Shown here: positions 2,073-47,577 of the stretch, piece after piece
Position numbering within the stretch: position 1 is the first letter of the stretch
How the letters are laid out: each line of letters opens with the position of its first letter
Source: Pelagibacteraceae bacterium AG-426-G09
Lineage (GTDB): Bacteria > Pseudomonadota > Alphaproteobacteria > Pelagibacterales > Pelagibacteraceae
DNA length: 48,289 nucleotides
Reading direction: 5' to 3'
Assembly: GCA_003210075.1 (NCBI GenBank)
Contig: QCNR01000010.1
Location: 7,501 to 55,789 of the forward strand
Notes under the pieces: generated by a model
What the model was told of the DNA's origin: nothing
Databases searched by the model: none
Seen by the model: the letters and a program-made list of their open reading frames with translations, nothing else
Made by a program: the position numbers and the translations under genes

Positions 2073-3386
2073 ATGATAAAAATTATTCTTAAAAGTCAAA
2101 TTTATCAGAAGTTTCAAGAGTTCCGATCGTTTGTACTGTTATTGTTGTTATTAACATTAACAGTAATAACAATTAGTTCTTATGATCGTTTCAAGTCTGA
2201 ACAATTAAATAATTTAGAAAATATTATACAAAATTTATATTTACAAAAAACACTGGAATCAATTTCAAATTCTTTAAATCCTAGGTTTGAAAAAATTAAT
2301 TATATAATCAAATCTGGTCAAAGCTTTGAGGCAATACTTAATGAAGTAAATATTGATAAACAAGAGAGAAAAAAAATAATTGATTTTATAATTAAAAATA
2401 AAATTAAGTTTAATATTTATGAGAATCAAAAAATTATTTTAGATATTGACAACCTAGAAGGTAAAAAAATCAGAAAAATAACAATTCCAATTAACAAAAA
2501 AAAGGATCTAATCCTTTCATATAACCAAAATAATTCTCTCGAATTCAAAGAAATTACCAAAGAGCTAAGAATTGCTAATATTTACAAAGAAAATTTTATT
2601 TCAAATAGCTTATATAAAGCTGCTATAGATAAAAAGATAGATCCAAATATTATAGTTCAATTTGCTCAAATATATGGTTTTCAGGTTGACTTCCAAAGAG
2701 ATATTAGAAAAAATGATAGCTTTCAAATTGTCTATGAAGAATATAAAAATGAAGACAATAAGACTGTAGATTATGGAAATATTTTATACGCTAACTTAAT
2801 ATTACAAGGTAAAGCTTTAGAACTTTTTTATTTTAACTCAGAAAAAGATAAGATAAATGATCATTTTGAACCTAACGGTCAAAGTATAAAAAAAACTTTA
2901 ATGAAAACCCCTATCAATGGAGCGAGATTGTCATCAAGTTATGGGATGCGTAAACATCCGATACTAGGATATAATAAAATGCATCAAGGAACAGATTTTG
3001 CCGCTCCAATGGGCACTCCAATAATGGCGTCTGGATCAGGTTTAATATTAAAAGCTGGCTGGTGTGGTGGTGGTGGAAATTGCGTTAAAATAAAACATAA
3101 TAGTACTTATAGTACAGTTTATGCTCACATGTCTAAATTTGCTAGAGGTATTAAAAAAGGAATAAGAGTTTCTCAAGGTCAAATTATCGGTTATGTTGGA
3201 TCAACTGGAATGTCAACAGGTCCACATTTGCACTATGAAGTTATTAAAAATGGAAAAAAAGTTAATTCTCAAACACTAAAACTTCCATCAGGAAAAAAAT
3301 TAAAGGGTAAAAATAGAGAAAATTTTGAGTTAGCGAAAATTAAAATTAATGTACTTAAATCAGAATTAATTAATGCTTCAAACTAA
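2073..3386 (+). CDS. M23 family peptidoglycan endopeptidase (murein DD-endopeptidase type)
   Basis: A 437-residue zinc metallopeptidase expected to cut peptide cross-links in peptidoglycan from the periplasmic side. A hydrophobic segment at about residues 17-39 is a signal anchor. A long charged middle section follows, and then the LytM/M23 domain from about residue 284. Zinc-ligand motifs are visible: H304-Q-G-T-D308 and the H385-L-H387 pair in GPHLHYE. The family is placed with confidence; the exact paralogue (NlpD-like, MepM-like) is not. It is divergent from the rRNA operon and its stop interleaves with the stop of the DUF4167 gene. Confidence 0.88.
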   Translation: MIKIILKSQIYQKFQEFRSFVLLLLLLTLTVITISSYDRFKSEQLNNLENIIQNLYLQKTLESISNSLNPRFEKINYIIKSGQSFEAILNEVNIDKQERKKIIDFIIKNKIKFNIYENQKIILDIDNLEGKKIRKITIPINKKKDLILSYNQNNSLEFKEITKELRIANIYKENFISNSLYKAAIDKKIDPNIIVQFAQIYGFQVDFQRDIRKNDSFQIVYEEYKNEDNKTVDYGNILYANLILQGKALELFYFNSEKDKINDHFEPNGQSIKKTLMKTPINGARLSSSYGMRKHPILGYNKMHQGTDFAAPMGTPIMASGSGLILKAGWCGGGGNCVKIKHNSTYSTVYAHMSKFARGIKKGIRVSQGQIIGYVGSTGMSTGPHLHYEVIKNGKKVNSQTLKLPSGKKLKGKNRENFELAKIKINVLKSELINASN

Positions 3387-3778
3387 TTTTCTTCAGCTTG
3401 AATTTGATCTTTGTCTTTCTTAGAGGTGTCAGCTTCGCTAATTTTACTAATACTGGTATCATTTAAATTTTCTGTAGATCCATTTTTATTATTTGAAAAA
3501 TTTGAGTTATTTTCTGAAAGTCTTACAAAATGTTCAGCATGTTGCATGTAGTTTTCATATAAAATTTTATCCCCAATAGATAAGGCTTCCCGTGCAAGAT
3601 CTGAATATTTTTGAATTAATTTAGAAGAGTTGAAATTATTTCTATGATAATTTTTCTTTTTAAAATCTGATACATTGCCTATGTTAGAATTAAAACTTTG
3701 ATCATTAGAGTTAATTTTTAATCCTCTTTCAAAAGAATTGCTTCTAAATCTTCTTCTATTATTTTTAAAATTTCTCAT
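3383..3778 (-). CDS. DUF4167 protein, small and basic
   Basis: A 131-residue, Asn- and Arg-rich protein. The N-terminus is strongly basic (RNFKNNRRRFRS), and the conserved block LIQKYSDLAREALSIGDKIL followed by ENYMQHAEHFVRL is the hallmark of the alphaproteobacterial DUF4167 family. In many alphaproteobacteria it follows prmC, as here, where the two genes overlap by one base (TAATG). The family's function is not established; the basic disordered N-terminus suggests RNA or ribosome binding, and the prmC-prfA context fits a translation-related role. That is inference. Confidence 0.85.
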   Translation of the reverse strand: MRNFKNNRRRFRSNSFERGLKINSNDQSFNSNIGNVSDFKKKNYHRNNFNSSKLIQKYSDLAREALSIGDKILYENYMQHAEHFVRLSENNSNFSNNKNGSTENLNDTSISKISEADTSKKDKDQIQAEEN

Positions 3779-35426: not shown

Positions 35427-38400
35427 TTATTTCTTCTTTTTAACAACCATTTTTTTTTCATATTTCTTTTTATTTTCTTCTTTTTCAAGATCTAAATACT
35501 TAGTCTCTAAGCTATACCAATCAAATTCATCTGTATTGATATGATCCATTCTATTCCAATTTTTTCGGTAATCACTATCTTCTTCATAATCTTCTATATA
35601 TTCATCATAAAATTTAGGATTATCATATTTTTCTTTTTTAAAGGCTATTCTGCATTTCCTGAATTCAGAAAAACTCACTGATTTCCAGAAGATATCTATA
35701 TTCTTAATCGTTTTTAGATTAACTACCTCATCAAAATTTATTGACTTAAACGGAATGTATAAAGATTCTCCAAATTGTTGTACATAAAGATTTTTAAGTT
35801 TCTTTAATTTAGCAATTTTCTTAAAATCTAAAATTTGTGTATCAAGTTTTGGAGTATATCCTTTTTCATAATCAAAATATTCTTGTCTAGCAGCAACACT
35901 AAAACTTAAATTAAGTTCCTCTAACGATAAAAACCTATTGGTAATGTTATTTATTATATCTTGAATAGTAGTTTGATTTTTTATATCAACATTTACAGTT
36001 AAGCTTAGTTTTTTAATTTTATGATTTATAAAATTTATAAATTCACTACTTCCTTTATAACTAGATGATATATTTCCTCCTCCATCATCTTTGAAATTTA
36101 GATCTCCTAATCTTAAATTAATATCTTCAATTTTTTTACAATTTTTGAAAAAAGATAAATCTTGATCACAAATTTCTTTTTGAGGCTCATAAGCAGTTAA
36201 ATGATCATCTTTATTAAAATGCATGACCCCAAGATTAATCTTTTTTAAATTTTCAATGGATTTTAGTTCTTTTAGATCAGAGGCTATTATTGCAGGGATT
36301 GTTATTTCCTCTAACTTTTTTAAATGATGAAGTTTTGATAAATCCACATTTATATAAGACCATGTATCTGTGTAGTATAAATTAGTCGAATATCCTGTAT
36401 AACCTAAAGTGTATTTGAACAATCTTTTATTATAAAAATTATCTAAATTTCTAATTTCAATTTTTTGAAGATTTGGGCAGTTCTCAAATTTTGATAATAA
36501 TACCTTATCTAAAGATTTTCTGTGATGATTTTGAAAAAAATTCATTTTAAGAATTTTTAACTTTGGAAAATAAGGTAAGTCTAAATTCTCACTTTGTAAG
36601 CAATCACTTAATTTTAAATATTCTAAATTCTCAATCGGTATAAATTTATCAAATTCATCTAATTTAATATATTTTTCTTGCCATGGATTTACACCCTCAA
36701 TCCAACAATGGGTGAGGTTTTTAATTTTTTCATCTTTAATTTCTATATTTTCTAGTACCTGGGTGAAATCCGTAGATTTTAAAAAATCCTCTTTAGATAG
36801 GTTACTATCTTTAAAATCATTTGATAAAACAAATTTTTCACTGATATTAGTTGCAACAGAAAATAACTTATCTTTTATCTTATTTATTCCCTCTTCATTA
36901 TTATTAACTAGCGTTCCTACAATTTTTTTTGCATTCCAATCTTTTTCTGTATAAGTCATTTGATGAGAAACATGATGTAGGGAAGCACCAAAATAAATAT
37001 ATATCTTTTTAAAATTTATATTTGGAATTTTGTCTATTGCAGTTTTCTTGATTACTAAAATTAAGCTATTTTTATCAGGCCTAAAATCAGAATCTGAAAA
37101 TCCAATTATTCTAATTATCTCTTCATATACATATTTAAACTGGTAATTTAATTTAGACCATTTTTTATCATCATCATTGATAAATTTTGGATAATGACTT
37201 TGTAAATCATCTAGTTGATTATTATTTATAAATGTTTGATCGGGAAAGTAGTTAGATTTATTATAAAAAATATCATCTACAATAACAACTTGATTGACAT
37301 TTTCATTTATAAATTTATCAGTCAATAAATCTAATTGTTTATCACTTGCACCCAATATTGTGAGGTTATCTTTTAAATTATTAATCTTAATTGAATTATA
37401 AAGATAAATTAAATGAATTTTGAAAGTGTCTGAACTATCTTTTTCATTTAGTAACTTTTTAATTTCAGGATGATAAATGAATATTTGAGTTTCTTTACAA
37501 TTTAATCTTAGTTCATATATAAATTTTACTAAAAAACTTATTTGGCTTGCGCTCCAATTTTCATCACCATCATATTTGTCATTTCTGGATAAATCAAAAA
37601 TAATTGACTCTAATTTATTTTGATTTTTAAATAGATGTTCCATTACATTCAATTTTTTTCCTCTATCAGATCCAGAATTACTTATATTTAAAAACCTAAA
37701 ACATGATTTAAAAATAAAACAAGTTGGATTTGATTTGATAACTTCCTCGTAATTTTTATTTTTTTTTATTACATAAGGCTTGTCATATTTATAGGTATCT
37801 TTGTAATAATCAAATTCACTGATATTAAAAACATTCTTATCTATAGCTATATTATTTTCTTTCATGATATTTAAAAACTTTTTATCTAATTGAAGGCAAG
37901 TATTAGTCTTGGTGTCTTTAAAACCGCAAAAAAAATTTACAGTTTTAAAGTCAATATTTAATTTTGACGTATGATTAACATTGTTTATTGTGAAATTAGT
38001 TTTTTGTTTTTCTAAAATTTTTATAAAATGATCTAATCCGTTTGTATATATATCGGTAATATTTCCATTATTAATAATTATATTTTTTAATTTTTTAAAT
38101 CTTTTGAGATCATTTAGTTTTGTATTCCAATAAATTTCTTTAAATATTTTTTTATTGTATTCATCATCCTCAAGAATTCTTTGTTTATATGTTTCATAAT
38201 TTATCAATTTAATAACTTCTAGATTTGGAAATATGATATGGCTGTTAGGAATATCAGTTATTGAATTATGCTTGTTCTTATAGCTTTTTTGCGAATAAGT
38301 GTTTATTTCAAAATCTGGTTCATCTGAGCTTGGGAATTCTAGACAGAATTCTTTTAAAGAAGAAAGTTTTGGATTTTTTTCAAATTTTTCGTTTTTTGAT

Positions 38401-38645
38401 TTATTGAAATAACAATAATGATTTAATTTTAATTTATATAATTTTTTAAGTGAAAAAATTGCATTATAAAATTTCTTAAAATCTATATAGCTATCTTTTA
38501 CATTTAAAGTTTCTAGTTTTTTAGCATCTGATAATACCGACCAATCATCATCTAATGTAAGATTTTGAAGCTTTAAATTTTTAATTTCTGAAATTTTTTT
38601 TATATCTTTAAGATTGCTTACGCTATACTCTTTAGAAATAATCAT
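35427..38645 (-). CDS. Very large leucine-rich-repeat protein of unknown function
   Basis: 1072 residues, no signal peptide and no membrane helix, so probably cytosolic. Irregular leucine-rich repeats occur in two blocks: about residues 1-205 (for example LSDAKKLETLNVKDSYID, FPNLEVIKLINYETY, FKKLKNIIINNGNITDI) and about 645-1000 (ENLEYLKLSDCLQS, CPNLQKIEIRNLDN, LKSIENLKKINLGV, AKLKKLKNLYVQQFG). Between them lies a 400-residue section without repeats that I cannot assign. The tail is Glu/Asp-rich and then ends in lysines (KKMVVKKKK). It is divergent from the chaperone operon with only 46 bp between start codons, suggesting shared control and perhaps a recognition role. That role is inference. 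Confidence 0.75.
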   Translation of the reverse strand: MIISKEYSVSNLKDIKKISEIKNLKLQNLTLDDDWSVLSDAKKLETLNVKDSYIDFKKFYNAIFSLKKLYKLKLNHYCYFNKSKNEKFEKNPKLSSLKEFCLEFPSSDEPDFEINTYSQKSYKNKHNSITDIPNSHIIFPNLEVIKLINYETYKQRILEDDEYNKKIFKEIYWNTKLNDLKRFKKLKNIIINNGNITDIYTNGLDHFIKILEKQKTNFTINNVNHTSKLNIDFKTVNFFCGFKDTKTNTCLQLDKKFLNIMKENNIAIDKNVFNISEFDYYKDTYKYDKPYVIKKNKNYEEVIKSNPTCFIFKSCFRFLNISNSGSDRGKKLNVMEHLFKNQNKLESIIFDLSRNDKYDGDENWSASQISFLVKFIYELRLNCKETQIFIYHPEIKKLLNEKDSSDTFKIHLIYLYNSIKINNLKDNLTILGASDKQLDLLTDKFINENVNQVVIVDDIFYNKSNYFPDQTFINNNQLDDLQSHYPKFINDDDKKWSKLNYQFKYVYEEIIRIIGFSDSDFRPDKNSLILVIKKTAIDKIPNINFKKIYIYFGASLHHVSHQMTYTEKDWNAKKIVGTLVNNNEEGINKIKDKLFSVATNISEKFVLSNDFKDSNLSKEDFLKSTDFTQVLENIEIKDEKIKNLTHCWIEGVNPWQEKYIKLDEFDKFIPIENLEYLKLSDCLQSENLDLPYFPKLKILKMNFFQNHHRKSLDKVLLSKFENCPNLQKIEIRNLDNFYNKRLFKYTLGYTGYSTNLYYTDTWSYINVDLSKLHHLKKLEEITIPAIIASDLKELKSIENLKKINLGVMHFNKDDHLTAYEPQKEICDQDLSFFKNCKKIEDINLRLGDLNFKDDGGGNISSSYKGSSEFINFINHKIKKLSLTVNVDIKNQTTIQDIINNITNRFLSLEELNLSFSVAARQEYFDYEKGYTPKLDTQILDFKKIAKLKKLKNLYVQQFGESLYIPFKSINFDEVVNLKTIKNIDIFWKSVSFSEFRKCRIAFKKEKYDNPKFYDEYIEDYEEDSDYRKNWNRMDHINTDEFDWYSLETKYLDLEKEENKKKYEKKMVVKKKK

Positions 38646-38691
38646 ATTTTTTTTTATATTATTAAGATAGTATTTTTAAATAAAAATTAAA

Positions 38692-39300
38692 ATGAATATT
38701 CAGCTAATAATATATGTATCAATAATAGCTTTATTATTATCAATTTTATGGTTAATTTTTTCTGTAAGAAAAAATAGCACAAATTTAAAAGAAAAAATAA
38801 GTAATTTACATAAAGACTTTGGATCTGGTTTGGAAACAATTAATGAAAATGTTTTAGAAATAAGTGAATTACTTGAAACATATAAAAAAGTAGTTGAAGA
38901 AAAAAACAATGAATTAAAAAAATATAAAGAAGGTGGAGATTTACAAAAACAAAAAAACTTATTTGTAAGTTTAATTGAAATTTTAGAGTTTATAAACGAA
39001 TTCAAAAAAAACTTAAATAACCTTGATGAAAAAACAAAAAATTATGTAGAGGCTATATATGATAAGTTAGAGATTATTCTAATGAACTCTGGTGTTGAAA
39101 AATTTAGTCCTGAGATAAATCAGAACGTACTTGAAATTAACGGTTGTTCACCCTCAATTGAAACGAAAAAAACTAAAGAAAAAAATAAAGTTAATCTTAT
39201 CTCTTCAGTTATTAAGCCAGGATATAGATTGCAGATAAAAGAAAATGATTTTATAATTCTTAAAAATTCAGAAGTTCAAGTATATGAATTGGATGTATAA
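38692..39300 (+). CDS. Membrane-anchored GrpE-like nucleotide exchange factor
   Basis: A 202-residue protein. Residues 4-24 form an N-terminal membrane helix (LIIYVSIIALLLSILWLIFS), residues about 28-75 a coiled coil, then a helical bundle (SLIEILEFINEFKKNL through LEIILMNSGVEKF). The C-terminal beta section VIKPGYRLQIKENDFIIL then NSEVQVYE matches the end of GrpE (pattern: GY.l....lRPA.V.V). GrpE releases ADP from Hsp70. The next gene, which starts directly after its stop, encodes an Hsp70. Classic GrpE is soluble; the anchor would tie this Hsp70 to the membrane. The similarity is remote and read by eye. Confidence 0.65.
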   Translation: MNIQLIIYVSIIALLLSILWLIFSVRKNSTNLKEKISNLHKDFGSGLETINENVLEISELLETYKKVVEEKNNELKKYKEGGDLQKQKNLFVSLIEILEFINEFKKNLNNLDEKTKNYVEAIYDKLEIILMNSGVEKFSPEINQNVLEINGCSPSIETKKTKEKNKVNLISSVIKPGYRLQIKENDFIILKNSEVQVYELDV

Positions 39301-40848
39301 ATGAGTAAAATTATTGGAATTGATCTTGGAACAACATACAGTGCAATTGCTCAATTAGATGATCTTGGAAATCCTGAGGTGCTTGCCTCAACTGACAACA
39401 ATAAAAAAATTACCGCAAGTGCTATATATATAAAAAGTCAAAATGTTGTTGTAGGTGATAAAGCTTTAGATGCGTTAGCTGCTACTCCTAAAAATGTAGT
39501 TACTGAAACCAAAAGACAAATGGAAAATGATGTAGTTTATTCCGAAGAAGCTGGTAAATGGGTTGATAAAGATGATAATAATAAAAATCTTTACTCCCCT
39601 GCTCAGATATCATCTTTTATTTTATCTAAATTAAAATCATATACATCTGATGTAAAAAAGGTTGTAATAACCGTTCCTGCTTTATTTGCAGAAAAAGCTA
39701 GAGTTGCAACTTTAGATGCTGCTAAAATGGCTGGTTTAGAGGTAATAAGCTTAATTAACGAACCAACTGCAGCAGCTTGCTATTATGCTAGCCTTCCAAA
39801 TGTAAAAAAAATTACAGGAAAAATTTTAGTTTTTGACTTAGGTGGTGGTACTTTTGATGTCACAGTTTGTAATTGTGAAGGAGAAAAGGTTGAGGTTATA
39901 ACTAGTCGAGGAGACAAATGGCTCGGTGGAAAAGATTTTGATAATGAGCTTGTAAATATTATGAGTGATAAATATCAAAAAGAAACAGGTAAATCACTTG
40001 ATCTTGAAAACAAAAATCAAGCTTATATGGAAATAGCAGAACGAATTAAGAGAAATTTGTCTTTAAGGGAAAAGCATGCTGAAGTAATTGAAGGTCCAGA
40101 GGGTCCAAAGAAAATTGAAATCACAAGAAATGAATTTGAACAATCAATACAAACACATATTGAAAAATTAAAAATGTTAATGGAAGAAGCTCTAGACGGG
40201 AGTGGACTTAAGCCTGAAAATGTAAGTCATACACTGCTCGTGGGGGGATCAACAAGAATACCAATTGTAACCGAAACAATAAAATCTGTAATGAAGAAGC
40301 CCCCGCTTAAAGGAGTGAACGTTGATGAAGCTGTTGCAGCGGGTGCTGCGATATATGCGGGTCTTCAATCCAGAAAAAGTTTAAATGAGGCACAGAAGCA
40401 AGCAATTTCAAATGTTAAGCTTCAGGATGTTTGCAACTTCTATTTAGGAACTTTAATTCAAGAGGATGATCCTGTATTAAATAGAAAGGTTACTGCTAAC
40501 TTAATTTTGATTGATAGAGATACACCTTTGCCGGCTACAATGACAAAAAGGATAGTTACACTCTATGATGACCAAGAAGCAATCTCTATTGAAATAACTC
40601 AAAGCGAAGGTCGGGAAAAAAACAGAGAATTTGTAAATATTATTCATGAAGGAGAACTGAAATTTCCTGATAAAAAACCAAAAGGAAGACCAATTGATGT
40701 GACTTACAAATATGATACATCTGGTAAACTTCATTGCACATTTCAAGATGAGTCCTCAAAAGAAAAGTATGAGATATCCTTAAGACCAGAGTCTGCTGAA
40801 GATCTAAGGAAAAATTATGAAGCAATTGAACATATAGTTATTGAATAA
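39301..40848 (+). CDS. Hsp70-family chaperone, short form (HscC-like)
   Basis: 515 residues against about 640 for DnaK. All nucleotide-binding motifs are present: IIGIDLGTTYSAIA (4-17), VVITVPALFAEKAR, INEPTAAACYY, ILVFDLGGGTFDV (about 176-188), LLVGGSTRIP (about 313-322) and DEAVAAGAAIYAG. A beta-sandwich substrate domain follows (PLPATMTKRI), but the helical lid and the C-terminal EEVD-type end are missing, as in HscC-type proteins. It is not the housekeeping DnaK, which normally sits next to dnaJ. It forms an operon with the GrpE-like gene (no gap) and the J-like cochaperone (6 bases). Confidence 0.93.
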   Translation: MSKIIGIDLGTTYSAIAQLDDLGNPEVLASTDNNKKITASAIYIKSQNVVVGDKALDALAATPKNVVTETKRQMENDVVYSEEAGKWVDKDDNNKNLYSPAQISSFILSKLKSYTSDVKKVVITVPALFAEKARVATLDAAKMAGLEVISLINEPTAAACYYASLPNVKKITGKILVFDLGGGTFDVTVCNCEGEKVEVITSRGDKWLGGKDFDNELVNIMSDKYQKETGKSLDLENKNQAYMEIAERIKRNLSLREKHAEVIEGPEGPKKIEITRNEFEQSIQTHIEKLKMLMEEALDGSGLKPENVSHTLLVGGSTRIPIVTETIKSVMKKPPLKGVNVDEAVAAGAAIYAGLQSRKSLNEAQKQAISNVKLQDVCNFYLGTLIQEDDPVLNRKVTANLILIDRDTPLPATMTKRIVTLYDDQEAISIEITQSEGREKNREFVNIIHEGELKFPDKKPKGRPIDVTYKYDTSGKLHCTFQDESSKEKYEISLRPESAEDLRKNYEAIEHIVIE

Positions 40849-40854
40849 ATCCTT

Positions 40855-43455
40855 GTGATTAAAAAAAAAATAAAGAAAAAGTTTGTTCAAAGACTTCAGC
40901 ACATAGTGCGTTTTGATGTAGAATTTGACTGCAAACATGAAGAAAGATCAAGTCATAAACCGTTGATTTCTTTTATTCAGGCGGGAGGTATATCAGATAA
41001 AAAATTTCTACTGGGCGATTTAATAATATCAATAAATAATATTAAAATAAAAACAATCAGTGATCTTGATTTTGAGGTAAATAAATTAAATTGGGGAGAT
41101 AAAGTATTATTTGAAGTAAAAAGAGAAGATAAAATTCAGGAGGTCAAAATAAATACAGTTTCATTTGATAGCTATACAAAGAAAAAAACGGTTTGGCCAA
41201 TAGAGGTAGAGTTAAAACATAACTTGCTTAAAATTAAAAATAAGGGAATTGAATACGAAAAATTTAATAAAGAGATAGAAGACGGCGATATTTTAATATC
41301 TATAAACTCTGAAGAAATTTTATCAGAATCTGATTATCATAAAAAAAGATCTAAATATAAAGTTGGTGATGAAATAGAGTTTGAAATTAAAAAAATTAAA
41401 AATTCAAAATTAAAAAGATTAAAAATAAAATTAATTAACTTCAAAAAATCCATAATGCTTAATAAAAAATCTTGTGAAAATTTTTATTTAAAAAAGGCTG
41501 GAGCATTATTATTTAAGGAATGGGAAGCTACAGATTTTGGACATAATCATGAAGATTGGAATATGAGAAGAGAAGAAATTCTTCAGCTAGAAGAAATTGC
41601 TGAAAGATTTGCAAAACAAGAAGATCAGGTCAATATAATTAAACATTGGCTGAACAAAGATATAAGATTAATAAATAAGTTAGTAAAACCAGAATTCAAA
41701 GATATTAATTTTAAATTAAATTTTTTTAGTTTAATTTTTCATCCTAAAATAATAGAAAAGTTAAAAAGTTTAAGTTTAACAAGCATTAACGAATGCTGTT
41801 ACTCATTTTTGTTAACAGGAAAAGCAATTAATGGTAGTTGGGATAAAAATCTTAAAGGAAATATTAAAAGTTTTGAAAAATTAATTTCAGTTAGAGATAA
41901 AAAAAAAGAGCTATTCATTGACAAAATCTCTGAAGTTACAAAAAATTTCTTCTTTAATCTTATTATAGATAAAAAAAGAGAATTAAATATTAAATACTTA
42001 TCAATTCAAAATAATAAACCATCTAAAAGAAATGCAGTTTTAAGTTCCGAACACTGTGGTGGATTTGAAAATATTATAAGTTTGCTAAAATTTTGGTTTA
42101 ATAGAAAATATGGTTTGAATAAGGCGGAAGTGAAACAAGCTATTGATGATTGGTGTAAAAGTTTTTTTTTAGAGTATCCTGATTTTACATATGAGAGAAT
42201 TGAAGAGATTCAAGAAATGGAACTTGAGGATGAACCTGAATATACTGAAGATGAAAATTCTAAGATTTTCATTTCAACACAAGTAAATAAAAAAAAAGTA
42301 AATGGAAAAGAATCATTTGTGGTGAAATTTAAAAGTTTTCCTGATGACTACGAATTGGAAAAAATATTAGAAAAAGGTAAAAAAATATTTTTAAAAATTT
42401 ATGTTTATGATGTTACGGATCTTAATTCTGATAAATACTATGAAATCCAAGATACAACTGGAGACACAGACAAATATTTTTCAAATAACTGTCACATTAT
42501 CAAAACTGAAAATTTTTCGTGGTCTGAGGGAAATAATGTTCTTGTACAGTCAAAAGTTTTAGAATCTGAGTTTGATCGTCCAAATGAGATTGCATTTCCC
42601 TACTCTGTTATGCAATTACCTAAATATGGAAAAAGAAAATTGGAATTTAGGTCGTTTATTTGTACGGAGGATTTAAAATTTGACGAAAATGACGGTAGAT
42701 TTATTTTCCGTGACAATGATCATGGAAGTTTTATAGCAGAAGTATATTATTTGGACGGATATGAATTTAATGAATATGGAGATTATCCAGAAATATTAGC
42801 ATACTCCTCTTCGGTTATTGATGTGGAATATAAACAGCCTGGATATTTAGAGCTAAATAGAAGAAAGTACAAAGATCTTAAAATTGCTCTAAGTTTTGCA
42901 CTCACTCAAGATAATGAGAATAATATAAATAAAAATTTTGATAAGATTAAAGAAGATATAAGATATGGAGATTTCTCAGCTGAAGGAAATATTAATAAAA
43001 TACTAAGTTTAAAAAAATATTACGAACAAGCCTCGAAAAATAAAATAAATTTAGATGATATTTTAAAAGATTTTAAAAAAAATTCATTAATATATGAACG
43101 ATACGAAATTATTGATTTTTTACTTAATCTAGCTACTAAGGATGGAAGTTTTTCAAATAAAGAAAATGATTTTATTGATAAGATTTCTAAACAACTAGAA
43201 TTAAATAAAGAAAATTATCAAGAAATTAAGAAACAAAAAACAGCATCAGTAAAATTAGTTGATTTCGGAGAGTCTGCTGGTGAGAACGTTTTTGGTTTAA
43301 ATAAAAATATGAGTAATGATGAAAAGATGAAAATTTTGAGAAAAGAGTATAGTAGATGGAATGCTCTTACAAACAATAGTGATAAAACTATTAGAGAGCG
43401 AGCTAGAGAAATGAGAGATTTAGCCGCTAATCTAAGGTCGGAGTATAACAAATAA
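40855..43455 (+). CDS. Giant multidomain cochaperone: two PDZ-like domains, TerB-like domain and HPD-less J-like domain
   Basis: 866 residues, start GTG 40858 or the in-frame ATT-preceded start; I keep the frame beginning at 40855. Two PDZ-like domains lie at about residues 30-110 (KKFLLGDLIISINNIKIKT) and 125-195 (IEDGDILISINSEEI). A helical section (about 215-460) and a beta-rich domain (about 475-690) are unassigned. A TerB-like helical domain follows at about 725-795 (IIDFLLNLATKDGSFSNKEN). The last 54 residues look like a J domain (MSNDEKMKILRKEYSRWNA, then ERAREMRDLAANLRSEY), but W835-N-A stands where HPD should be. TerB plus J is the DjlA architecture. With the preceding Hsp70, a role as its partner is likely. 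Confidence 0.75.
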   Translation: MIKKKIKKKFVQRLQHIVRFDVEFDCKHEERSSHKPLISFIQAGGISDKKFLLGDLIISINNIKIKTISDLDFEVNKLNWGDKVLFEVKREDKIQEVKINTVSFDSYTKKKTVWPIEVELKHNLLKIKNKGIEYEKFNKEIEDGDILISINSEEILSESDYHKKRSKYKVGDEIEFEIKKIKNSKLKRLKIKLINFKKSIMLNKKSCENFYLKKAGALLFKEWEATDFGHNHEDWNMRREEILQLEEIAERFAKQEDQVNIIKHWLNKDIRLINKLVKPEFKDINFKLNFFSLIFHPKIIEKLKSLSLTSINECCYSFLLTGKAINGSWDKNLKGNIKSFEKLISVRDKKKELFIDKISEVTKNFFFNLIIDKKRELNIKYLSIQNNKPSKRNAVLSSEHCGGFENIISLLKFWFNRKYGLNKAEVKQAIDDWCKSFFLEYPDFTYERIEEIQEMELEDEPEYTEDENSKIFISTQVNKKKVNGKESFVVKFKSFPDDYELEKILEKGKKIFLKIYVYDVTDLNSDKYYEIQDTTGDTDKYFSNNCHIIKTENFSWSEGNNVLVQSKVLESEFDRPNEIAFPYSVMQLPKYGKRKLEFRSFICTEDLKFDENDGRFIFRDNDHGSFIAEVYYLDGYEFNEYGDYPEILAYSSSVIDVEYKQPGYLELNRRKYKDLKIALSFALTQDNENNINKNFDKIKEDIRYGDFSAEGNINKILSLKKYYEQASKNKINLDDILKDFKKNSLIYERYEIIDFLLNLATKDGSFSNKENDFIDKISKQLELNKENYQEIKKQKTASVKLVDFGESAGENVFGLNKNMSNDEKMKILRKEYSRWNALTNNSDKTIRERAREMRDLAANLRSEYNK

Positions 43456-43457
43456 AT

Positions 43458-44591
43458 TTAATTTGCATCGAGTTTTAAAATAAGTTTTTCTAAAATGGAT
43501 TTAGAATCTTCACTATGATCAACCGTTTCTGCAAATATTTCTTTTAAAGTATTAATAATTTTTTGTTTGTCGGTTTTCAATAATACTTCAGCTTCATTGA
43601 AAGCTTCTTCTACTCTTTTTTCTATTATTGACATTTTAGAAATATTTAAAAGGCTTTTGATACTAATAGTTACCTTTTCCCCAAATCTCTTTTCAAATCT
43701 TTGTTGATCTTCCTTTGAAAATTTTTTGTCCGCTAAATAAATTCTTAAAGCACCCCATAGCAAAGCTTTATTAATTATCTCTTTATTTGAAATATCCAAT
43801 TCATCTCCAGCAACTTTTTTTATGCTATCATTTATTTTGTCATCAACTTTGCTTAAATCATAGGTACCAGTTTTATTTGTTTTAAAATATTCGTTGTATT
43901 CACGGCTCATTGAAAACCAAATTAATGCCTGCATACGATTTAAAAATGTTGGATGTGTTGAGTAAGCTAGATTTTGATTTCCTTTTAATTCTTTTAATTC
44001 TCTCAATTGATCTAAATATGAACTAAAGTTAAATGAAATATACTTATCACTAAGTCCTGTTGAAATTTTAAGCATGGATCTTAAAGAATTTTCAATATCA
44101 CCTGAACCGATTAATCCTGCTCGGTCGGCTGAAATCTCAGCAGCCCTACTCAAATGAAGAAAATTTAAGAATTCAGTTCGATTTCGAGCTTTATTCACTT
44201 CGGGATATAAATTGTGTTGGTAATAAAAGTGCGAAACTTCATGAGCAATTACACTCTCTAATTCTTGTGCATTTAGTAATTCTACCATTTTAGATGTAAT
44301 TATGATTTCTGCATTTGAACTTTGAGGCATCATCGCACAAGCTGCTTGGGTCTCTACATGGTTTGCTGTTATAAAAAAATTGAAATTGTTATTAATTCCA
44401 AGTTTTGAGAAAACATTATCAATGCTTTTTGCAATTGTGGGAAATAAACTATGACTTACTTTAACCGAACTAGATAATAAATTTTTTAAATTTTGATTAT
44501 TGTAGGTTTTTTCTTTAATTTTTTTTGTTTCTAGATGAACAATTTCATTTAGATTGTCATATTTATATCTAAATTTATCTAAGTAGTTCAT
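43458..44591 (-). CDS. Soluble M48-family zinc metallopeptidase
   Basis: A 377-residue peptidase with the zinc motif H117-E-V-S-H121 in LESVIAHEVSHFYYQHN and the third ligand in AEISADRAGL (E152, D156), the M48 arrangement. Unlike HtpX or Oma1 it has no obvious membrane helices or signal peptide, so it probably acts in the cytosol. Residues about 285-377 are helical and unassigned. It is the last gene of a minus-strand operon and converges on the cochaperone gene with two bases between the stops. Its place beside a chaperone module suggests protein quality control. Confidence 0.85.
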   Translation of the reverse strand: MNYLDKFRYKYDNLNEIVHLETKKIKEKTYNNQNLKNLLSSSVKVSHSLFPTIAKSIDNVFSKLGINNNFNFFITANHVETQAACAMMPQSSNAEIIITSKMVELLNAQELESVIAHEVSHFYYQHNLYPEVNKARNRTEFLNFLHLSRAAEISADRAGLIGSGDIENSLRSMLKISTGLSDKYISFNFSSYLDQLRELKELKGNQNLAYSTHPTFLNRMQALIWFSMSREYNEYFKTNKTGTYDLSKVDDKINDSIKKVAGDELDISNKEIINKALLWGALRIYLADKKFSKEDQQRFEKRFGEKVTISIKSLLNISKMSIIEKRVEEAFNEAEVLLKTDKQKIINTLKEIFAETVDHSEDSKSILEKLILKLDAN

Positions 44592-44607: not shown

Positions 44608-45630
44608 TTAATTTTTCTTTTCGATGCTATTTAACTCTTCTTCTACTCTTTCCATTTTAATTTTTATTTTTTCAGCTGATGTTGAAACAGATTGGGCACT
44701 GTTATAAACTCGTTTCATATTATTTTCATGCGTTTCTGTATCAGTACGAAGTTTTTCGATCAGTGAATTTAATGATTCAACATGTTTTAAAAAGTTTTTT
44801 GCTTTTTGATCTACTTCTATTGAATTAAAACCTAATAGAATAGCGCTGCAGTATGCTGAAAAAGTTGATGGACCCATAAAGGTTACTTTTGTTGAGCTTT
44901 GAACTTTAGATATCCATAATTCTTTTTCACTATTTATATGAGTTGTTATTTCTAAATATAAACTTTCACTAGGAATATATACGCATGCGAAACCCGAACT
45001 GATTGGACTATCTATATATTTTTTATTTACTTCGATAGATTTATCTTTGTAACTTTTTATTATTGCTTTAAATAAATCTTCTTTTTTTTTATCTATTTCT
45101 GGAGAAGTTGGTTGATCTCTTAACTTTAACAAGTCTTCATATAAAGTTTTGGTCCAATGCGAATCTACTGGCATTACTAATCCACTTGGATGTTTAATTG
45201 CAAACTCTACAGATAATGTCGTACCATCTTTCTCTATAGACTGATTTTTGACCCATTGCTTATCATATACGAGACCAGAATTTTTAAATAAATTTTCTAA
45301 TAGTAATTCACCTGCAATTCCAGATCTTTTACTTCCTGTTAAATTATCCACTAGTTTTTGATGAGCTGTTAAAATTTCAGTAGATTTTGACTCTATTATA
45401 CCTTTGTTAACACCTACATTGGTCGTAACAGTACTTAAACTATTTGTAAAATTATTTCTTAATTTTTCAACCTCATCATCTATTTTTTTTTTAATATCAT
45501 CGTTATACTTAACGTGATCTTCTTTGCTATAAACATCACTATCCGAGTTATTTTTTTTACTTTTAAATATTGTTAAGATTATATTTAATAATATTAATAA
45601 TCCTATTATCCACAATAAAACGTCATTCAT
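44608..45630 (-). CDS. RmuC-family protein, membrane anchored
   Basis: 340 residues with an N-terminal membrane helix (LLWIIGLLILLNIILTIF), a coiled coil (about 45-90) and an RmuC domain. The family blocks are VEFAIKHPSGLVMPVDSHW, YKDKSIEVNKKYIDSPISSG and FACVYIPSESLYLEI. RmuC proteins are predicted nucleases reported to limit inversions at short repeats; the biochemistry is thin. A clear AAAGGTAGG ribosome site precedes ATG 45630. A second coiled coil ends the protein. It lies 16 bases before the M48 peptidase gene. Confidence 0.85.
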   Translation of the reverse strand: MNDVLLWIIGLLILLNIILTIFKSKKNNSDSDVYSKEDHVKYNDDIKKKIDDEVEKLRNNFTNSLSTVTTNVGVNKGIIESKSTEILTAHQKLVDNLTGSKRSGIAGELLLENLFKNSGLVYDKQWVKNQSIEKDGTTLSVEFAIKHPSGLVMPVDSHWTKTLYEDLLKLRDQPTSPEIDKKKEDLFKAIIKSYKDKSIEVNKKYIDSPISSGFACVYIPSESLYLEITTHINSEKELWISKVQSSTKVTFMGPSTFSAYCSAILLGFNSIEVDQKAKNFLKHVESLNSLIEKLRTDTETHENNMKRVYNSAQSVSTSAEKIKIKMERVEEELNSIEKKN

Positions 45631-46116: not shown

Positions 46117-47577
46117 TTAAATTTTTGAATATTTTTCTTTAAGTTGATTTGCATATTGATCAATCTGATCAAGAAACTTTAGCTTTTCATTTTTTGATTT
46201 AAATGCAAACATCCTGTCATTTTTTTCTCTCAGATCATCAATTTCTTTTTGAAGTTTTGGAATTGTCCACCATTTTTCATCACCCATGCTTAAAACTCTA
46301 TCGGCAATCTTTTTTTTTATTCTTTTAAAAACTTTTTCCGGGAGAACATCGGGAGCTTCATTGTAAATTAATTGTTCTCCAAAAACTTTCATCCTCTGAT
46401 CTTCAAAGTTTTCTAGCATTTTAAATTTTTCACCCCAGTCTGCAGCATGGAATTTTGGAAATAGAAATCGATCTTTATCAGGTGTAAAACCTTTATAAAT
46501 TTGCTCCTCTGGCTCTGAATCTAATTGAGAATCTGTTTCTGCTTTTTCTTCTGCATTTTCTCTTAAGATATTACAAACATCTTCTGCAAATTTTGCATTA
46601 GACTTAATTAAATGGGCTCTTTTTTTCAAAAGATCTGGTGCTATTGCATTATATGGTTCAACTTTCATTCCATGGCTAGCATTTAGTATAACGGGAGCCT
46701 TATTTGACCGGATGGTTCTTAAAAACTTCGGAGCTTTATTCATTTCTTTTTTTAATTCTGAATGAGAAAGATCAAACAACCGCTCTATATCTGTACGTAA
46801 ATCAACTGCTTGCCCATATTTCCAAACTGGATGTATACAATTGCTTGGATGCAGTGGAGCACAGAGGTATAAACGAGAACGTGAATAAAAATATTCATTA
46901 ACAGTTATCATTGTCTCGTTTTTAATTATTTCCTCGACATTCTGCCTGGTACTTGTTTTAAAATAAGTCTGCCAAAGGTCTGGCTGCTTTTCTTTCACTA
47001 TGGATAGTAACTTTCCGGTTAATTCTGCGTCAAATAAGGCTGAATGTGATTGATCTGTATTAAAACCATTTAATCTTCCAAGAGACTCTAGTTTCATTGA
47101 AACATTTCCTTTTTCATTTAATTCTGTGTTTAGTACTGTTGAGTCAACCGCGTAAGCAGCTCTAATTATATTTAATGCATCATGCCTAGAGTTACCTTTG
47201 GTATTTGTAAGATAAGGTTCTCTAAGAGATTTAAAAAATTCTTTCCTAATGCATTCTTCATCAAAATTAATTGACGAGAAACCTATGAATATAATTGGAG
47301 AAGCTTTTGACCATTCTTTAAATTTAGCCTCCACCTGACCTATTAATTGATAATGAGATAAATTTTGTTTAGTTAATAATTCTATTGAAGATCGATTCAC
47401 GCATAAAGCTGTAGCTGACGGAACCCGATCTTGTGGCAATCTACATCTTCCACTAAATCTCTCAATTTCTTTAAAATTCTCATCTAATAATATTGCTCCA
47501 ATTTCAATTATTGTTGCCCAATCTGTTGAAGCTTGGTCTGTTTCAAGGTCATATAGAACATACCTTTTATTTGTCAT
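46117..47577 (-). CDS. sbcB: Exonuclease I-like DEDDh nuclease (SbcB family)
   Basis: 486 residues, the length of exonuclease I, which degrades single-stranded DNA 3' to 5'. All five DEDDh positions are seen: D10 and E12 in YDLETDQ, D106 in INFDEE, and H178 and D183 in SHSALFDAE. NSRHDALNIIRAAYAVD is a further ExoI-type block. The second half matches the SH3-like and helical part only loosely. A strong AAGGAGAT ribosome site lies 7 bases before the start. It heads the sbcB-hypothetical-RmuC-M48 operon. A more distant DnaQ-type nuclease is the alternative. Confidence 0.88.
   Translation of the reverse strand: MTNKRYVLYDLETDQASTDWATIIEIGAILLDENFKEIERFSGRCRLPQDRVPSATALCVNRSSIELLTKQNLSHYQLIGQVEAKFKEWSKASPIIFIGFSSINFDEECIRKEFFKSLREPYLTNTKGNSRHDALNIIRAAYAVDSTVLNTELNEKGNVSMKLESLGRLNGFNTDQSHSALFDAELTGKLLSIVKEKQPDLWQTYFKTSTRQNVEEIIKNETMITVNEYFYSRSRLYLCAPLHPSNCIHPVWKYGQAVDLRTDIERLFDLSHSELKKEMNKAPKFLRTIRSNKAPVILNASHGMKVEPYNAIAPDLLKKRAHLIKSNAKFAEDVCNILRENAEEKAETDSQLDSEPEEQIYKGFTPDKDRFLFPKFHAADWGEKFKMLENFEDQRMKVFGEQLIYNEAPDVLPEKVFKRIKKKIADRVLSMGDEKWWTIPKLQKEIDDLREKNDRMFAFKSKNEKLKFLDQIDQYANQLKEKYSKI

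Follow-up and report, generated by a model that had tools for sequence, protein, structure and literature searches.

Gene content of the locus

The DNA analyzed here (the window) is a 48,289-nucleotide stretch of contig QCNR01000010.1 from Pelagibacteraceae bacterium AG-426-G09, whose 1.16-Mb assembly comprises 38 contigs and is 87% complete. Positions 38692 to 43455 contain three contiguous plus-strand genes, separated by 0 and 6 bases, as the initial annotation described from the open reading frames (ORFs). These encode a 202-residue GrpE-like protein with an N-terminal membrane helix (38692..39300), a 515-residue lidless Hsp70 (39301..40848), and an 866-residue co-chaperone-like protein with a GTG start codon (40855..43455), whose last 64 residues form a J-like tail without the His-Pro-Asp (HPD) motif (43261..43452). 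On the minus strand follows a gene for a 377-residue M48 metallopeptidase (43458..44591). On the other side, a divergent minus-strand gene with homologues at other loci encodes a 1072-residue leucine-rich repeat (LRR)-like protein (35427..38645); the 46 bases between the LRR and GrpE genes (38646..38691) presumably represent a promoter region. Because an ordinary grpE-dnaK-dnaJ locus is found on another contig (C13) of this genome, the genes at 38692-43455 constitute a second Hsp70 system. The dnaK gene on contig C13 (L002) is itself split over two frames (ORFs 1501-2589 and 2603-3421), which could be an assembly error or a true break.

In the initial annotation, the three genes were read as a dedicated Hsp70 machine, the second of this genome, with components that deviate from the DnaK-DnaJ-GrpE model, a description that the searches support: the Hsp70, PDZ, and TerB assignments are firm, that of GrpE is good, and that of the J-like tail is weak. 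It had missed the adjacent M48 gene, the absence of HPD, the horizontal transfer, and the association of the divergent LRR gene with the other genes.

Distribution and linkage of the module

The Hsp70, the 866-residue protein (TerB-J, after its TerB domain and J-like tail), and the M48 peptidase are encoded side by side at all 11 Hsp70-bearing loci, those of the window and of genomes G260, G805, G811, G741, G179, G015, G211, G171, G150, and G829. A twelfth locus, in G090, has TerB-J and M48 genes at a contig end. The gene set (the module) is therefore not confined to the window genome. As a three-gene unit, the set proposed initially holds in part: Hsp70 and TerB-J are adjacent at 11 of 11 loci, whereas a GrpE-like gene is adjacent at only 5 of the 10 testable ones (the G150 locus is cut by a contig end, and GrpE-like genes elsewhere in those genomes were not searched for), and M48 is the steadier third gene.

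The M48 protein of the window matches the Pfam M48 family with an E value of 7.7e-13. All 12 M48 proteins retain the HExxH and ExSAD motifs and show no membrane helix by hydropathy. A profile search of the order, with the best few candidates scored per genome, finds this peptidase in 11 of 397 genomes, the weakest match at 9e-156 and nothing further down to 1e-15. A TerB-J gene lies beside all 11 of these M48 genes and an Hsp70 gene beside 10, the eleventh being the contig-end locus of G090; G015 came from a separate sample (3/101), not from the 397-genome search. In a search of the order with the Hsp70, 6 of 297 genomes match at 2e-147 or better, and the next matches are longer DnaK-like frames from 2e-64.

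In samples of wider taxa, the M48 profile matches G526 and the window genome among 349 genomes of the phylum, and the Hsp70 profile at 1e-80 matches 1 of 269 genomes, again that of the window. The TerB-J profile at 1e-4 matches 24 of 398 genomes, with the window genome scoring 4e-79 and the second-best match 5e-10. Nine of these loci were examined: eight (L045, L046, L050, L052, L057, L058, L060, and L069) each contain a DjlA-like ORF with HPD, and the match in G101 is a 137-residue ORF with no module gene in the 17 kb covered. At least one more distant M48 match is found in a Bdellovibrionales metagenome-assembled genome (L070:622-1911); its tail looks TerB-like by eye, and Pfam reports only M48. 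No Hsp70 is found among the ORFs of its 6.8-kb contig, and searching that genome for TerB-J gave no match, a result of little weight by itself. These searches do not establish that the module is absent outside the order.

The Hsp70 protein

The window Hsp70 matches the Pfam HSP70 family with an E value of 1e-88 over residues 4 to 499. It remains far below the NCBIfam cutoffs of the DnaK equivalog models (299 bits versus 648 for PRK00290 and 297 versus 822.55 for TIGR02350) and of the HscA model TIGR01991 (267.2 versus 708.55 bits). In a tree with a small sample of nine other sequences (DnaK, one HscA, and two HscC), the 11 module Hsp70s split off with support of 1.0 and so form a lineage of their own, apart from the sampled DnaK, HscA, and HscC proteins.

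The ATPase residues are retained: Asp8 and Lys70 in 10 of 10 proteins (the G150 Hsp70 is cut) and Glu171, Thr199, and Asp201 in 11 of 11. The stretch after Lys70 is shortened, and the substrate arch residues are changed relative to DnaK. In the alignment, only 15 or 16 residues follow the position of DnaK residue 507 in each of the 11 proteins, which leaves no room for the helical lid, a usual, albeit not universal, Hsp70 feature. The last two residues are Ile-Glu in every one of them. In the interdomain linker, Leu390 and Leu392 are replaced by polar residues, Val389 and Asp393 are kept, and position 391 is Leu in 10 proteins and Met in 1, so that the VLLLD of DnaK becomes V-polar-[LM]-polar-D.

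The TerB-J partner

Pfam searches with the 866-residue protein reveal PDZ_2 domains in two stretches (1.6e-13) and a TerB domain (1e-7). The predicted order is two PDZ domains (residues ~20-195), a beta-rich part (~470-660), TerB helices (~666-796), and the J-like tail (~803-866). The structure model has a mean predicted local distance difference test (pLDDT) score of 60.7 and a predicted template modeling score of 0.31, with low confidence at ~200-405; the tail is predicted to form two helices, 821-840 and 844-864, with pLDDT of 70 to 82 in this block. The PDZ part resembles those of HtrA/Deg/Ctp proteases (best match 3qo6_B, Z score 12.5, root mean square deviation 2.2, 90 residues aligned). 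Profile comparison aligns the TerB domain and tail with the TerB and J domains of DjlA (97.2%, E value 3.8e-11).

Among the 12 partner homologues, Pfam TerB is found in all (best 1.4e-14) and Pfam PDZ in 5. The PDZ build (window, G260, G805, G811, and G741) has no hydrophobic anchor in any of its 5 members by hydropathy, whereas the non-PDZ partners have a hydrophobic N terminus in all 6 cases in which the N terminus can be read. Six of the 12 proteins end in Cys (Tyr-Asn-Cys); the window protein ends in Lys.

Changes at the J contact

According to a 2021 review, Asp35 of the HPD motif bonds DnaK Arg167 and Gln378, His33 contacts Leu391, and Pro34 contacts Pro419 (PMC8215388). In the module Hsp70s, the Arg167 position is occupied by Ser (4 proteins, including the window's) or Glu (7 proteins), never by Arg, and the Gln378 position by Tyr or Phe in 11 of 11 (Tyr in the window). 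Both residues are retained in all 17 comparison Hsp70s (12 DnaK proteins of the order, E. coli DnaK, one Clostridia DnaK, one HscA, and two HscC). HPD, in turn, is absent from the tails of all 12 TerB-J homologues, and Pro419 is retained in all 11 module Hsp70s. Position D477 was also considered as a lost J contact and dropped, as HscA and HscC differ there too.

With both sides of the HPD contact gone, DnaJ of the cell should not drive the module Hsp70, nor should the module tail drive DnaK. The J contact appears to have been rewired, and the module is probably an insulated chaperone circuit. The R167A mutation in DnaK is reported to be suppressed by D35N in DnaJ, and an HPD-to-AAA change to leave some activation in some systems (PMC13012618).

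The GrpE-like protein

The GrpE-like protein of the window matches Pfam GrpE at 2.3e-5 (24.6 bits, against a cutoff of 25.8), and all five members scanned match at an E value of 0.01 or better, the best at 1.4e-8; profile-profile comparison with GrpE gives 43% and an E value of 2.5e-4. The N terminus is hydrophobic in all five (peak mean hydropathy of 2.8 to 3.1 over 19 residues). The structure model, with a mean pLDDT of 52.6, is too poor for fold assignment. A BAG-like fold was set aside, given that poor model and the wide matching of helical bundles.

Horizontal exchange, insertion site, and selection

The identities of the module Hsp70 and of DnaK do not go together. G805 and G741, which belong to two genera, share 97.1% identity in the module Hsp70 and 88.4% in DnaK, whereas G179 and G150 share 60.0% and 98.6%, respectively. 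Across the 28 pairs from eight genomes, which are not independent, the correlation is absent (rho of -0.12, p of 0.53). These comparisons indicate that the module is exchanged horizontally.

In G741, the module lies between rpoD/dnaG (identified by Pfam) and a gene for a 199-residue, putatively MlaC-like protein. On the corresponding side of the G805 module, homologues of that gene and of the next one are found. The 199-residue protein gene was located in 10 other genomes, and its downstream side was compared in nine (L125-L133). The interval between it and rpoD is ~250 bases in G106 and contains one to four listed ORFs in G103, G110, G012, G102, G112, and G107; in G108 and G109, rpoD is not reached within 11.7 to 11.8 kb. 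None of these nine stretches contains a module gene. By this comparison, the G741 module fills a site that is variable elsewhere, near-empty in G106 and occupied by different genes in others. The neighbors of the G811 module have homologues in the same interval in G012, G107, and G108, so that this module may sit at the same site as that of G741; a different site was considered for it and dropped.

Parts of the module may also have moved separately. Between the window and G811, synonymous divergence (dS) is 0.51 for the LRR gene and 1.9 for the Hsp70 gene, a gap that suggests part-wise exchange. The window LRR gene compared with its homologues at L082 and L083 gives dS values of ~0.5 to 0.6, against ~1.7 to 1.9 for the neighboring Hsp70 genes. 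The ratio of nonsynonymous to synonymous divergence (dN/dS) is 0.03 to 0.06 for Hsp70 (five pairs) and 0.03 to 0.04 for M48 (three of five pairs, two being saturated), versus 0.12 to 0.21 for TerB-J and 0.13 to 0.17 for the LRR protein. These ratios indicate genes maintained by purifying selection, with the presumed recognition parts changing faster.

A proposed chaperone-protease module

From gene content, linkage, motif losses, purifying selection, and horizontal transfer, all read directly in the sequences, the locus is, on balance, best interpreted as a mobile, dedicated Hsp70-M48 chaperone-protease module, composed of a lidless Hsp70, a TerB-J-like partner, and a soluble M48 peptidase, with the GrpE-like and LRR-like proteins as optional parts. 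The N-terminal arm of the partner (a PDZ pair or a membrane anchor, plus the beta-rich part), together with the LRR protein where present, would select the client. The J-like tail would bind the Hsp70 in the region of its nucleotide-binding domain and linker, the contact no longer being made by the HPD aspartate, and ATP turnover by the Hsp70 would hold or open the client, which would then be handed to the M48 peptidase.

Several observations weigh against this interpretation. The M48 gene lies on the strand opposite to the Hsp70 gene in the window, G805, G811, and G741, so co-transcription is not required, and GrpE is missing beside half of the loci. The DjlA match is carried mostly by the TerB domain, the tail alone reaching 9.5% against J. 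The losses at the J contact exceed the background only modestly: of the 99 positions that are invariant in the 17 other Hsp70s, 22 are changed in every module Hsp70, so that, with positions treated as independent, the joint loss of Arg167 and Gln378 would be expected by chance with a probability of about 5% (against DnaK as the sole reference, 114 of 304 positions are changed). Polarity at linker position 392 is not special, as both HscC proteins have Thr there. The stretch corresponding to DnaK residues 258 to 305, which contains a loop that we take to be GrpE-facing, lacks six or seven residues in each of the 11 Hsp70s, irrespective of the presence of a grpE-like gene. Finally, the physical complex, like client selection, hand-over to the peptidase, and insulation from DnaK/DnaJ, is something that we infer.

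Several known systems resemble the module. DjlA, a co-chaperone of DnaK, has a TerB domain followed by a C-terminal J domain, where the partner has a TerB domain followed by a J-like tail, and presumably a hydrophobic N-terminal stretch like that of the non-PDZ members. The partner differs in the loss of HPD, the additional beta-rich part, the PDZ domains of some members, and the location of its gene beside its own Hsp70 and M48 genes. The DnaK-DnaJ-GrpE system likewise combines an Hsp70 ATPase and beta subdomain with a GrpE-like factor and a J-like partner; the module, in contrast, is lidless, has changed substrate arch residues and no HPD, and can do without an adjacent GrpE. HscC, with DjlB and DjlC, resembles the module in being a sporadic specialized Hsp70 encoded beside its own J partner; to our knowledge, it has no M48 or LRR partner. 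HtpX-type M48 peptidases share the HExxH and ExxAD motifs, whereas the module M48 has no membrane helix by hydropathy and is set apart in the 397 genomes by the gap in scores between 9e-156 and 1e-15.

Possible functions and alternatives

The initial annotation had named defense as one possibility beside membrane proteostasis. If the module serves in defense or genome conflict, an invader protein would be sensed by the LRR or PDZ arm, and the Hsp70-M48 pair would degrade that protein or a host target. This would be a task for the same chaperone-protease module, and it is put forward here tentatively. The patchy distribution, horizontal exchange, and variable site in G741 would fit it, and so would the nuclease-like neighbors. 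An LRR-like protein is encoded beside 7 of the 11 modules (the 966-residue homologue at L038 has weak Pfam LRR matches, below the cutoff; the window protein itself matches no Pfam family at an E value of 1, and its LRR reading is partly by eye), and nuclease-like genes are found near 7 of the 11, all with LRR. Downstream in the window, as neighbors rather than core genes, are minus-strand genes for an RmuC family protein (44608..45630; Pfam) and an exonuclease I-like protein (46117..47577; Pfam/NCBIfam), the latter with a homologue beside the G260 module, and, close to the end of the window, a Cas4-like gene. Cas4-DUF2779 genes are found beside G015 and G741. RmuC genes adjoin the G260 and G179 modules; G179 also has an RNase H_2/AAA helicase there, a homologue of which lies beside the G260 module. 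A DUF2130-like gene lies within ~2 kb of 5 of the 11 modules (by Pfam in G260 and G811 and by homology in G015, G805, and G741), compared with 5 of 147 genomes that have one anywhere (Fisher p of 1.3e-4).

A more distant relative points the same way. A 2073-residue protein of G526 (L089:2725-8946) combines M48, TerB, an SF1-type helicase, and an endonuclease-like domain (MTES_1575, below the cutoff) and adjoins a GajA homologue (L089:505-2550); its helicase-endonuclease part matches PDC-S37 and Hhe of PADLOC. The neighborhood and this fusion suggest a link with genome conflict, without proving it. That a J protein can take part in phage sensing has a precedent in bNACHT25 with DnaJ, although this pair consists of a NACHT protein and an ordinary DnaJ, with no dedicated Hsp70 (PMC12169576).

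Other results argue against a defense role. At an E value of 0.1, no PADLOC 2.0.0 family matches the Hsp70, the partner, the M48, or the LRR protein; Shango came into consideration solely through the TerB domain, and the presence of a Shango model in the library was not checked. The GrpE-like protein gives weak PADLOC matches (best 1.1e-3), and the neighboring RmuC matches RTasRmuC at 2e-7. No match to the 866-residue protein is found in phages or plasmids, nor to the M48 in plasmids, and when viral contigs were scanned with patterns for Hsp70, M48, TerB-J, and LRR, no relative was confirmed; the 174 plasmid Hsp70 matches are all <60% identical, and 40 of them, a spread selection, are annotated as DnaK, HscA, or HscC or carry no annotation. 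Of the five DUF2130 loci, three have modules that are closely related to one another. At the four loci that lack LRR (G211, G171, G150, and G829), no nuclease-like gene is present among the neighbors scanned, and the variable site holds apparent non-defense genes too.

Quality control of membrane or envelope proteins is an unlikely task for the module, albeit one that overlaps with the chaperone-protease interpretation. In this scheme, an Hsp70 machine fixed to the membrane, with PDZ arms resembling those of HtrA and a peptidase resembling HtpX, would maintain membrane or exported proteins; a comparable role has been proposed for HscC together with the tail-anchored DjlB and DjlC. The membrane anchor of all five GrpE-like proteins, the hydrophobic N termini of the non-PDZ partners, the similarity of the PDZ part to HtrA/Deg/Ctp proteases, and a PrsW-like protease gene, identified by Pfam close to the G211 module and by homology close to those of G171 and G829, are consistent with such a task. 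However, the PDZ-type partners are anchorless, three of their loci have no adjacent GrpE, the M48 lacks a membrane helix by hydropathy, and presence in 11 of 397 sampled genomes with horizontal exchange fits housekeeping badly. The "membrane-tethered" label of the initial annotation suits only some copies: in the window, the GrpE-like protein carries the tether, but half of the testable loci have no adjacent GrpE gene, and the PDZ-type partners have no anchor, whereas the non-PDZ partners with a readable N terminus start with a hydrophobic stretch.

It is very unlikely that the protein is simply another DnaK of the usual kind, or a stress chaperone resembling HscC, with no special design: HscC, too, is described as sporadic, probably GrpE independent, and provided with its own J proteins, and its deletion of residues 76 to 101 (PMC8215388) recalls the shortened stretch after Lys70, but the tree places the module Hsp70s on a separate branch from the two HscC, one HscA, and sampled DnaKs, both HscC proteins keep Arg167 and Gln378, HscC has a lid (PMC8215388), and the DnaK and HscA models score far below their cutoffs (the set included no HscC model).

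Implications

Among the titles and abstract openings returned by searches of open-license literature, none describes this module. The 2021 review recognizes three types of prokaryotic Hsp70, DnaK, HscA, and HscC (PMC8215388). It is conceivable, if doubtful, that the module represents a mobile immune-like chaperone machine, with an LRR/PDZ sensor, a fourth kind of Hsp70 insulated from DnaK/DnaJ by the joint loss of HPD and its Arg167 and Gln378 contacts, and an M48 effector powered by this Hsp70; if true, LRR recognition would here be combined with an Hsp70 and a protease in bacteria. A further lineage whose Hsp70 and partner both lack the contact regarded as critical for the stimulation of ATP hydrolysis by J proteins would represent a natural experiment on Hsp70 activation. 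The association of the two with a peptidase and an LRR-like protein, in genes that are exchanged together, suggests that mobile accessory systems can include chaperone machines, even where genomes are small.

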